This document shows positions 56,088-60,075 of a stretch of DNA of 64,000 bases, one piece after another. Each line of letters opens with the position of its first letter. The first letter of the stretch is position 1. Origin of the DNA: Longitalea luteola (GTDB lineage Bacteria; Bacteroidota; Bacteroidia; Chitinophagales; Chitinophagaceae); assembly GCF_017356035.1 (NCBI RefSeq), contig NZ_JAFIQX010000005.1, positions 345,368 to 409,367 of the forward strand, in the 5' to 3' direction. The notes under the pieces were generated by a model. The model was not told where the DNA came from. It searched no databases and saw only the letters and a program-made list of their open reading frames with translations. The translations under genes were made by a program, and so were the position numbers.

Positions 56088-58004
56088 ATGACTAATATGA
56101 AACAGATCAGTTTGTTATTTGCCAGTTTCTGGATGATTGCTTCCGCCGTATCCCAAACCACGCAGGAGATATCCATTATCCCGCAGCCGGTTTCCCTTGA
56201 AAAAAAGAACACCCGCTTTGTTTTGAACGCTCAAACCAAAATAGCGGCCGATAGTAAAAATGCCGATGTGCAGCGTATCGCCGGCTTCTTTACAGGCCAG
56301 GTAAAAAAAGCTACCGGTTTTGCGCTGGGGCAGGCAGCACCGGCAGCTAAAACAAATGTGATCAGTTTTTCGCTGAACCGCACCCCTGATAAATCAATTG
56401 GAAAAGAGGGCTACACTTTAGATGTAACCGCCACCGGCGTGCAGATTGCTGCCAACGACGCTGCGGGCTTGTTTTATGGCGTGCAAACCCTGTTGCAGTT
56501 GCTGCCCAAGGAAATTGTAAGTGAATCGGTGGTCAAAAAAGCCTCCTGGACCATTCCCGGAGTGCAGATAACCGATTATCCGCGCTTTGCCTGGCGCGGA
56601 CTGATGTTCGATGTAGCCCGGCACTTCTTCACCAAAGAACAGGTAAAACAGTTCATAGACGATATGGTGCGGTATAAATACAATTTATTGCACTTACACC
56701 TTACTGATGACCAGGGCTGGCGCATCGAGATCAAATCGCTGCCTAAGTTGACCGAAGTGGGCGCCTGGCGGGTTGATAAGACCGGTACATTCGGTACATT
56801 CACACCCCCTGCTGAAAATGAGCCACGCACTTACGGCGGCTTCTATACCCATAACGATATTAAAGAGCTGGTGCAATATGCGGCCGACCGTTATGTGAAC
56901 ATCCTGCCTGAAGTGGATGTGCCCGGCCATAGCATGGCAATGGTTGCTGCTTACCCGGAACTCTCCTGCACACCGGGCACCTACCGCGTTAACTCGGGCG
57001 AAAAATTCATGCAGTGGACCGATACCGGCTTTTATGCACTGATAGATAATACGCTTTGTCCGGCCAATGACAAAGTATACGAGGCGCTTGATAAAGTGTT
57101 TACGGAAGTAGCCCAACTGTTCCCGTTCCAATATATTCATATGGGTGGCGATGAATGCGCCAAGAATTTTTGGGAGAAGAGCGATGCCATCAAACAGCTG
57201 ATGCAGCGGGAGAACCTGAAAGACCTGCATGAAGTGCAAAGTTATTTTGTAAAAAAAGTAGAGAAGATCATTGAATCGAAAGGCAAAAAGATGATAGGCT
57301 GGGATGAGATCCTCGAAGGCGGCCTGGCGCCCAATGCGGCTGTTATGAGCTGGCGCGGATCGAAGGGTGGGGCAGAAGCCGCCAGGTTGCAACATGAGGT
57401 TGTAATGAGCCCAAACAATCATACTTACATAGACCTGATGCAGGGCGATCCGGCTATTGAACCGCCCGTTTATAAAAGCGTACGGTTGAAATCGTCTTAC
57501 CAGTTTGAACCGGTGCCCGCAGGTGTAGATCCCAAATTCATCAAGGGCGGACAAGCCAATTTATGGACGGAACAGATCTACAATATGCGCCATTTGCAAT
57601 ATATGGTGTGGCCGCGTGCCTTTGCAGTGGCAGAAAGTGTTTGGTCGCCCGCAGAAAAAAAGAACTGGAACGATTTCATCCGCCGCGTGGAAGATCATTT
57701 TGAACGGTTCGATGTGGCCGAGATCAAGTATGCGCCCAGCATGTACGAACCTATTTTCGATGTAAGCAAAGATGGCGAGCTGCTGAAGCTGACGATGAGC
57801 ACAGAGGTGGAAGGACTGGACATTTATTACAGCTTCGATAATTCATTCCCCGATCGTTTTTATCCCAGGTATACCAAGCCGGTACAGATCCCCAGGGATG
57901 CGGTAAATGTTCGGGTGATCACGTATAAAGGAAAAGAACCTGCCGGCCGCATGATCACAATTCCGGTGGCTGAGCTAAGAAAACGTGCTGACAAGAAAAA
58001 ATAA
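56088..58004 (+). CDS. Beta-N-acetylhexosaminidase, GH20
   Basis: An exported exo-enzyme that releases terminal N-acetylglucosamine or N-acetylgalactosamine. Signal peptide about 1-22 (VSQT). GH20 domain 2 lies at about 25-155 (IIPQPVSLEK) and the catalytic barrel at about 158-515, with PGVQITDYPRFAWRGLMFDVARHF, HLTDDQGWRIEIKSLPKLTEVG and the Asp-Glu pair in HMGGDECAKNFW. A C-terminal beta-sandwich resembling the chitobiase C domain (IYYSFDNSFPDRFYPRYTKP) follows. Length 638 is typical. It is not next to a SusC/SusD pair. A second ATG at 56097 is also possible. Confidence 0.93.
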   Translation: MTNMKQISLLFASFWMIASAVSQTTQEISIIPQPVSLEKKNTRFVLNAQTKIAADSKNADVQRIAGFFTGQVKKATGFALGQAAPAAKTNVISFSLNRTPDKSIGKEGYTLDVTATGVQIAANDAAGLFYGVQTLLQLLPKEIVSESVVKKASWTIPGVQITDYPRFAWRGLMFDVARHFFTKEQVKQFIDDMVRYKYNLLHLHLTDDQGWRIEIKSLPKLTEVGAWRVDKTGTFGTFTPPAENEPRTYGGFYTHNDIKELVQYAADRYVNILPEVDVPGHSMAMVAAYPELSCTPGTYRVNSGEKFMQWTDTGFYALIDNTLCPANDKVYEALDKVFTEVAQLFPFQYIHMGGDECAKNFWEKSDAIKQLMQRENLKDLHEVQSYFVKKVEKIIESKGKKMIGWDEILEGGLAPNAAVMSWRGSKGGAEAARLQHEVVMSPNNHTYIDLMQGDPAIEPPVYKSVRLKSSYQFEPVPAGVDPKFIKGGQANLWTEQIYNMRHLQYMVWPRAFAVAESVWSPAEKKNWNDFIRRVEDHFERFDVAEIKYAPSMYEPIFDVSKDGELLKLTMSTEVEGLDIYYSFDNSFPDRFYPRYTKPVQIPRDAVNVRVITYKGKEPAGRMITIPVAELRKRADKKK

Positions 58005-58020
58005 TGTGGTAATCTGATAA

Positions 58021-58060
58021 TACAAAAGATCCGATGGCCAGGGCCATCGGATCTTTTGTA
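58021..58060. terminator. Terminator after the hexosaminidase
   Basis: A perfect 19-bp-arm hairpin at 58021-58060 with a two-base loop (arms TACAAAAGATCCGATGGCC and its reverse complement, ending GATCTTTTGTA). Suits rho-independent termination on the plus strand and, given the A tract, on the minus strand too. Confidence 0.9.
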
Positions 58061-58075
58061 TTTAAAAATAAAATA

Positions 58076-58125
58076 GGAACGCCGGCCGTACTATGTTTAA
58101 TCCTTCACGTGTACATGGGCGTTCC
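58076..58125. other. Long-range hairpin in the 58.0-58.8 kb gap
   Basis: GGAACGCC (58076-58083) pairs with GGCGTTCC (58118-58125), and inside it GTAC and TGTAC can add base pairs. It could be part of a structured RNA or a cruciform. 58130-58490 otherwise shows no gene or repeat I can support. Confidence 0.35.
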
Positions 58126-58494
58126 CCTGGCAAGAAGATATTTTATACTAGAAAAGTAAAATCGATTTTAAAAAATAACGTTCGGCCTTTTCAAGTTAAC
58201 GGCAAAATATTATTTGTCCTAATATCTAATATGATGATTATGCTAAGTTTTTACAGGCATGATTGAGCGATTTACCTGCTGTTTTTGCACAGCTTTGCCC
58301 TGCAAAATTAATGTTAGCACATGCGATCTATACAGGTAACCCGAATAGTTAACTGAAGGCGCAACGGATTTATTGCATGATGTGTCAATTAAAAAGATCA
58401 TCGGCCCTGTATAACAAGGTGATGATTAACCGCTAAGCTGACATAGTGGTTCTGCATCTGTATTTTTACGGGTTACGATTAATCAATCATTGCG

Positions 58495-58525
58495 AAAGTC
58501 CTGGCGGTACCCGTCGGGACTTTTT
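58495..58525 (+). terminator. Hairpin with T tract, possible small-transcript terminator
   Basis: AAAGTCC (58495-58501) pairs with GGACTTT in GGGACTTTTT, then T tract to 58525. No gene ends nearby on the plus strand (the hexosaminidase ended 490 bp earlier at its own terminator), so it may end an unannotated small RNA. A TATTTTTA word (58461-58468) is the only promoter-like sequence seen before it. Confidence 0.5.
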
Positions 58526-58619
58526 GTAGAAATAATGTCTCAGGTTGACAGTCACTACAATTGTTGAAATGGCGTCAGTTTGGGGTTTACAGTTTCCTTA
58601 ACAGCGTTTATTGGCCGAA

Positions 58620-58649
58620 TTGTGGTCAGGCACAAATAATGTAGCCTTG
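58620..58649 (+). promoter_or_regulatory. Candidate promoter, TTG-N19-TAGCCTTG
   Basis: TTG at 58620-58622 and TAGCCTTG at 58642-58649 are separated by 19 bp, the Bacteroidota -33/-7 spacing; the -7 differs from TAnnTTTG at one base. It would start a transcript near 58655, with a terminator 90 bp downstream. Confidence 0.5.
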
Positions 58650-58655
58650 GTGTAG

Positions 58656-58745
58656 TTACTAAAAACAACAATATTCAAATAGGTAAGTTAAGGGGTATTA
58701 TCATCACAAAGGCTTCTCCCGGTTTTTCCGGGAGGGCCTTTTTTC
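58656..58745 (+). ncRNA. Candidate small RNA (about 90 nt)
   Basis: The stretch has no reading frame of note, is preceded by the promoter-like pair at 58620-58649 and ends in a strong hairpin (AAAGGC, then CTCCCGG pairing with CCGGGAG, then GCCTTTTTT, 58708-58745). The 5' part GTTACTAAAAACAACAATATTC is A-rich and unstructured, a plausible target-pairing region. The family is not recognised. Alternatively it is only the leader of nothing, or the terminator works for the minus strand. Confidence 0.4.
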
Positions 58746-58767
58746 GTTCAGGCAGGGCAGAAGCAAC

Positions 58768-58801
58768 AAAAAAGCGTCCCGGCGGGGCCAGAACGCTTTT
58801 T
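58768..58801 (-). terminator. Terminator of the isocitrate dehydrogenase gene
   Basis: On the minus strand AAAAAGCGT pairs with ACGCTTTTTT around the loop TCTGGCCCCGCCGGG, ending in six T. It lies 41 bp after the icd stop. Confidence 0.85.
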
Positions 58802-58842
58802 GTATATGTGTAACCAGTTTATTTTGTTAAGCTGGCGGCTTA

Positions 58843-60075
58843 TTAAGCCATTTTCTTTTTCAGGTTAGCATCGATCGCATCCAGGAATTCTTCAGTATAC
58901 AGGTAGTGTTTTCCATGTTCTACTTTATTTCCATGAATACAAACGGCCAAATCTTTAGTCATTTTGCCACTTTCAACTGTTTCTATACAGGTAGACTCTA
59001 ATGTGTTGCAGAAGTCGATAAGGGCCTGGTTGCCGTCCAGTTTACCGCGGAAGGCCAAACCTCTTGTCCATGCAAAGATCGAAGCGATGGGGTTGGTGCT
59101 GGTACGTTTACCAGCCTGGTGGTCGCGGTAGTGACGGGTAACAGTACCGTGGGCTGCTTCGGCTTCCATGGTCTTGCCGTCAGGAGTGATCAATACTGAG
59201 GTCATTAAGCCCAGAGAACCAAATCCTTGTGCAACGGTGTCGCTTTGAACGTCGCCATCGTAGTTCTTACAGGCCCAAACGAAATTACCGTTCCATTTCA
59301 GGGCGCTGGCTACCATGTCATCGATCAGGCGGTGTTCGTACACGATATTGGCTTCCTGGAACGCCTGTTTGAACTCATTGTCAAAGATCTCCTGGAAGAT
59401 ATCCTTGAAACGGCCATCGTATTTTTTCAAAATGGTGTTTTTTGTACTCAAATACAACGGCCATTTTTTGTTCAGGGCCATGTTGAAGCAGCTGCGGGCA
59501 AAACCCTTGATGCTTTCGTCGGTGTTGTACATGGTGAGGGCCACGCCATCGCCTTTGAAGTTGAATACTTCAAACGTTTGTGGTTCGCCGCCATCTTCAG
59601 GGGTAAAGGTCATAGTAAGTTTACCTTTTCCTTTGATCACGGAATCAGTAGCGCGGTACTGGTCGCCAAAAGCGTGACGGCCAACGATGATCGGAGCGGT
59701 CCAGTTGGTAACAAGGCGGGGAATATTGTTGATTACGATAGGTTCACGGAATACAGTACCATCGAGAATGTTACGGATGGTACCATTGGGGCTCTTCCAC
59801 ATTTGTTTCAGGGAGAACTCTTTTACGCGGGCTTCGTCGGGTGTGATAGTAGCACATTTGATTCCAACACCATACTGTTTGATAGCATTGGCGGCATCAA
59901 TAGTTACCTGGTCATTGGTTTTGTCGCGGTATTCAATACCCAGGTCGTAATACTTAATATCGACGTTAATGTAGGGAAGGATGAGTTTATCCTTGATGAA
60001 CTTCCAGATAATGCGTGTCATTTCATCGCCATCCAGTTCTACAACAGGATTCTGTACATTGATTTTTTGTGCCAT
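58843..60075 (-). CDS. icd: NADP-dependent isocitrate dehydrogenase, eukaryotic-type homodimer
   Basis: Oxidises isocitrate to 2-oxoglutarate with NADP in the citric acid cycle. The 410-residue sequence is of the type II (eukaryotic-like) class: [20 protein letters not shown] at the N terminus, the substrate-binding [44 protein letters not shown] and [25 protein letters not shown]. The catalytic Tyr and Lys motifs are intact. It is transcribed alone and has a well-formed promoter and terminator. This type differs from the E. coli NADP enzyme. Confidence 0.95.

Follow-up and report, generated by a model that had tools for sequence, protein, structure and literature searches.

Two described small RNAs (sRNAs) come closest to the locus reported here. 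GibS of Bacteroides thetaiotaomicron is an intergenic, trans-acting sRNA of ~145 nt which is conserved within one genus, combines an exposed conserved stretch with hairpins and an intrinsic terminator, and has a promoter that is not of the standard sigma-A form (PMC7366714). Rfp18 of Flavobacterium psychrophilum is an independent transcript conserved beyond one species, with strong predicted folding and predicted base-pairing targets; it is expressed and affects proteases (PMC9723704). The same sources give TAnnTTTG as the sigma-A -7 consensus (PMC7366714, PMC9723704) and describe an SM5 box, TAnnTTGY, for Flavobacterium (PMC9723704).

The locus lies in a window of 64,000 nucleotides, i.e. the whole stretch of DNA of the soil bacterium Longitalea luteola that was analyzed, taken from a 7.3 Mb genome (G000). 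A sequence-only reading of this window had pointed to a gap of ~840 bp; from the list of open reading frames it measures 838 bp (58005-58842), between a 638-aa ORF and icd, both taken to be metabolic genes of an ordinary kind. Comparison with relatives suggests that this gap very probably holds two small regulatory RNA genes, B and C, and perhaps a third, A. Comparisons were made within a set of 10 Niastella/Longitalea genomes, the window's own included (hereafter the genus set), in which the nearest relative of G000 is G007. The features are the following.

56088-58004, plus strand: 638-aa ORF, hexosaminidase-like (41.7 bits to the beta-N-acetylglucosaminidase model, cut-off 1000)
58020-58209, minus strand: candidate RNA A, with a TATTTTGC box at 58209-58202, a possible start near 58197 and a conserved block at 58136-58066
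58358-58526, plus strand: predicted RNA B, in 10 of 10 genus genomes
58493-58526, plus strand: terminator of B, folding in 10 of 10 genomes
58598-58644, plus strand: two-part element TTAACA-N25..27-GGCA ending ...ATAATGTAG, in 10 of 10 genomes
58677-58709, plus strand: invariant core of predicted RNA C, 33 nt identical in each of the 9 genomes in which it was found
58708-58745, plus strand: terminator of C, a hairpin and U-rich tail, present in all 9 genomes with C, with differing stems
58843-60075, minus strand: icd, NADP-dependent isocitrate dehydrogenase (TIGR00127, 750 bits, cut-off 397)

That the 638-aa ORF encodes a GH20-type hexosaminidase is our own reading, its model score lying far under the cut-off. 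A DNA search with the gap locus matched all 10 genomes of the genus set, and the order hexosaminidase-B-C-icd is kept in 9 of them, the nine whose contig reaches icd. No ORF of at least 40 aa is listed within 58402-58842, and a mechanical 52-aa ORF on the minus strand (58243-58401) covers the beginning of B. Closed ORFs span 6-21 codons inside B and 0-2 codons inside C. Both B and C are intergenic and non-coding and end in an intrinsic terminator (B in 10/10 genomes, C in 9/9), which are criteria for an sRNA. The small-RNA reading is based on this conservation, the kept neighbours, the terminators, the lack of coding content and a restriction to the genus.

B and C resemble GibS in being intergenic and conserved within one genus, with an exposed conserved stretch, hairpins and an intrinsic terminator, and B is similar to it in size; a promoter that departs from the standard sigma-A form may be a further likeness (PMC7366714). 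The conserved exposed stretch of GibS is however at its 5' end, whereas in B and C it directly precedes the terminator, and the gibS neighbours, a para-aminobenzoate synthase cluster and a glycogen operon, differ from those of B and C when compared by description (PMC7366714). With Rfp18, the locus would share an independent transcript, conservation beyond one species, strong predicted folding and predicted pairing targets, but Rfp18 is reported as expressed, with an effect on proteases (PMC9723704), while B and C are predicted.

The conserved body of B covers 134 nt (58358-58491) and starts at 58358 or earlier, as conserved letters upstream reach ~58337. Alignment of this body over the 10 genomes (58355-58494) gave a mean column identity of 84%. 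Two hairpins are predicted in it (58396-58427 and 58428-58451), followed by a conserved tail ending in AATCAATCATT and by the terminator. Folding of the body alone is weak evidence for structure: depending on the genome, 8 to 166 of 300 shuffled sequences were as stable, so that most genomes exhibit no stability beyond that of shuffles, and the changes in its two hairpins are limited to one side of a pair, with a few pairs broken. The 4 pairs of B that changed on both sides are all inside the terminator, a hairpin (58493-58526) of -21.0 kcal/mol (z -5.8, 0/200 shuffles as stable). B would then be an RNA of ~130-190 nt, with a 5' end between ~58340 and ~58396 and a 3' end at ~58526, in which two predicted hairpins are followed by a conserved, exposed tail and then by the intrinsic terminator. 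The sequence-only reading had noticed a hairpin at 58495-58525 with no known gene before it. The second terminator is indeed there, but the predicted RNA ending at it is much larger than was noted, its conserved body reaching back at least to 58358. No TAnnTTTG box was found in the 150 nt 5' of B in the 10 genomes. An invariant TTTATTGC is present inside B (58369-58376), differing from the SM5 box TAnnTTGY by a single letter.

Could terminator-like and promoter-like patterns arise by chance in an AT-rich gap? A generic terminator scan over 2 kb found 4 terminators, against 2.3 (sd 1.5) in shuffled sequences, a count close to chance, and left the first hairpin (58493-58526) unlisted; moreover, the promoter motif proposed before C recurs 7 times in the window in its loose form, TTG-N19-TANNNTTG. 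The two hairpins reported earlier are nevertheless both present, the second one within a segment (58674-58745) of -24.4 kcal/mol (z -4.8, 0/200 shuffles as stable). Across the genomes, 0 to 3 of 300 shuffles were as stable as the terminator folds after B and C. The corresponding position holds a hairpin and U-rich tail after B in 10/10 genomes and after C in 9/9, with stem sequences that differ, and this makes the hairpins more than chance. Such conservation and renewal of the terminators contradicts the chance explanation, which we find scarcely credible. Lack of conservation was one half of what the sequence-only reading named as evidence against two short RNAs. The two blocks, each ending in a terminator, are instead conserved throughout the genus, and the possibility of two short RNAs is now well supported.

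C was found in 9 of the 10 genus genomes, the exception being G008, a genome 61% complete. The contig of G008 ends 338 nt past B, and C begins 183-421 nt past B in the other nine, so that its absence may be explained by a contig ending too early. As a yardstick for the 33 invariant nt, we used the neighbouring icd, in which only 49 of 157 fourfold-degenerate sites are invariant and third positions are 70-85% identical in pairwise comparisons. The icd coding sequence nevertheless contains one invariant run of 74 nt, longer than the C core, and the length of the invariant run is therefore not by itself unique to C. The sequence directly 5' of the core is unrelated between species, except between G000 and G007. 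A stretch of 90 nt proposed earlier as non-coding thus stands in part: it is non-coding, and its portion from ~58677 to 58745 is conserved, while the preceding ~20 nt are common to G007 alone. The core folds at only -1.2 kcal/mol and is predicted to be unfolded, as expected of a pairing stretch. With its conserved exposed stretch and the terminator that follows, C is built like the 3' part of a small RNA. Having 33 nt unchanged across a genus beside freely changing sequence, C offers a clear entry point for experiments.

Two other meanings of these conserved blocks were weighed. They might be DNA sites, for protein binding or recombination, rather than RNAs. An invariant core in C would also fit a DNA site, and the two-part element at 58598-58644 may well represent one. 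For the blocks as a whole this is improbable, as directional plus-strand terminators with T-tracts follow B in 10/10 and C in 9/9 genomes. Alternatively, C (or B) could act as a regulatory leader or attenuator, given a possible codon run in C, ATT ATC ATC ACA (read as Ile-Ile-Ile-Thr), that lies directly before the terminator. This we regard as very improbable, given that no ORF with a start codon covers the core, the longest closed ORF of C has 0-2 codons and third positions are as fixed as the others. In addition, the next gene, icd, is convergent with blocks B and C, and nothing lies downstream on the plus strand to be controlled.

The start of C is less clear than its end. The promoter suggested earlier, TTG-N19-TAGCCTTG, is present at 58620-58649, but it is not conserved: G007, the nearest relative, lacks it, and of 9 genomes just 2 have a TTG-N19..21-TANNNTTG pattern in the B-C interval, at distances of 57 and 138 nt from C. 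The TAnnTTTG box was also absent from this interval in the 9 genomes. Its lack of a standard sigma-A box should make the locus informative on the activation of such RNAs in this family.

What is conserved in this interval is the two-part element. Its TTAACA and GGCA halves are separated by 25 nt in 1 genome, 26 in 7 and 27 in 2, and TTAACA-N25..27-GGCAYAAW has a single match in the window, where 0.02 were expected. Over the 10 genomes this pattern gave 22 sites, 8 of them at the present locus; the other 14 compare with 11 for a reversed control, and no regulon was found for it in the genus set. The element may be the control region of C. It sits 48 to 304 nt 5' of the core, depending on the genome, so that the 5' part of C must vary or be trimmed if the element controls C; such a spread is odd for a simple promoter-RNA unit. 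The element loosely resembles a sigma-54 -24/-12 element. The -12 element usually carries a C, which is missing from GGCACAAATAATGTAG (GG-N10-G), and the element is not a recognised promoter.

These observations also bear on whether B and C could belong to one longer transcript, with partial read-through of the B terminator and C as a processed 3' end. Such an arrangement would account for the lack of a recognised promoter directly before C and of conservation directly before its core. We consider it unlikely in view of the strong B terminator in 10/10 genomes, the variable B-C spacing and the conserved element that the interval has of its own. We favour B and C as stand-alone plus-strand genes. 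C would be a short RNA with its 3' end at ~58745, whose working part is the exposed invariant 33 nt directly before the terminator; the part 5' of the core is presumably trimmed off or unimportant, since its length and sequence vary between species.

Outside the genus, no match to a 25-mer of C with at most 3 mismatches was found in 288 other genomes drawn from the family Chitinophagaceae, and the same search retrieved 6 of 6 genus genomes. The check by covariance model proposed earlier was run for B, and C was traced by pattern instead. Among 117 genomes, strong matches to the B model were confined to the two genus members, and the other 115 gave one weak match (G127, 69% complete, E 0.004); the A model likewise gave 2 strong matches, with 5 further genomes at E 0.0015-0.0075. 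Both model searches used strict filters, with 27 or 42 candidates scored per genome, and may miss distant relatives. Within ~1.5 kb of icd in 10 other genera (one locus being shorter, at a contig end), no gap-like sequence was found, the sole match being of 22 nt (E 0.34). An exact 19-mer of C retrieved, from a named genome collection, 7 records from Niastella/Longitalea and 3 from unrelated bacteria, namely two from Dehalococcoidia and one from Enterococcus; we estimate that ~2 chance matches are expected. In its own genome, an 18-mer of C has no second site with fewer than 2 mismatches. Phage and plasmid records gave no match, and IMG/VR no exact match to the 19-mer.

Among the genomes searched, B and C are therefore restricted to the genus. 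No Rfam 15 family reached its gathering score in the window or in the loci of the nine relatives, and the 17 matches from a scan of 58000-58900 at a low threshold all stayed under the cut-offs of their families. 6S RNA, a conserved RNA expected in the genome and comparable to B in size, was considered as well: its model, RF00013, finds nothing in the 10 genus genomes, and was positive in only 5 of 14 control genomes. Limited literature searches found no small-RNA work on Niastella or Longitalea. Small RNAs restricted to a genus are a familiar kind, of which B and C would be new members. In B. thetaiotaomicron, 27 of 49 high-confidence intergenic sRNAs are described as strain-specific (PMC7366714).

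From this pattern we infer transcription of B and C, control through 58598-58644 and base pairing in trans. On the sequence evidence, both RNAs are highly likely to exist; that they exist and also act by trans base pairing is somewhat better than an even bet. By analogy with GibS, their short exposed stretches would pair with target mRNAs. Searches of the genus genomes with an antisense 20-mer, a wobble-allowing 16-mer and duplex energies established no target of C. With at most 3 mismatches, the 20-mer found the 9 C loci themselves and 4 sites in 3 genomes, of four different sequences. The 16-mer found 62 sites, 9 of them C loci, against 34 for the reversed control. Thirty-six of the 16-mer loci were examined, of which 2 were C itself; among the remaining 34, 24 had their longer open frame antisense to the site. 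One sense site recurs, 33 nt from the start of a 174-184-aa ORF, which we take to be SRPBCC-like. Predicted pairing with C there reaches -28.2 to -31.8 kcal/mol in 5 genomes (0/200 shuffles as good in each), these genomes having been picked for matching; the values for the 5 remaining orthologues are -17.7 to -21.1 kcal/mol, with 10 to 17 of 200 shuffles as good. This predicted site is a lead only. The ORF (L106:1468-1992, orthologues L132-L141) encodes a membrane-anchored protein of 174-184 aa whose early coding region is strongly complementary to the C core in 5 of 10 genomes and weakly so in the others.

At the other end of the gap, block A (58066-58136) has a mean column identity of 97% over 10/10 genomes. 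Its TATTTTGC box, on the minus strand, was seen in all 10 genus genomes (9/9 plus G001) and fits the SM5 box. The block can form GGAACGCC/GGCGTTCC, a stem without any variation across genomes, whose pairing is thus predicted only; the folding of the block by itself lacks significance (z -1.6 to -1.9). On the minus strand, an inverted repeat, read by eye in relatives, lies 3' of the block and is common to A and the end of the hexosaminidase gene. A is a possible third RNA of ~180 nt (about 58197-58020, minus strand), which the sequence-only reading did not mention.

With A included, the gap might form a compact hub of three RNAs activated by different sigma factors and none from the standard promoter, in which C would partly act as a decoy of B, through TTATCATCAC imitating the 5' arm of the first hairpin of B and pairing with the GTGATGAT arm. 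Duplexes of -18.0 to -22.8 kcal/mol are predicted between the C core and 10/10 B sequences, with 0 to 23 of 200 shuffles as good and an average of -14.5 to -16.2 kcal/mol for shuffled C cores against B. We hold this elaboration to be a long shot. Finally, 3' of icd, a terminator-like hairpin of 15 pairs (58769-58801, minus strand) is convergent with the terminator of C, an ordinary arrangement.
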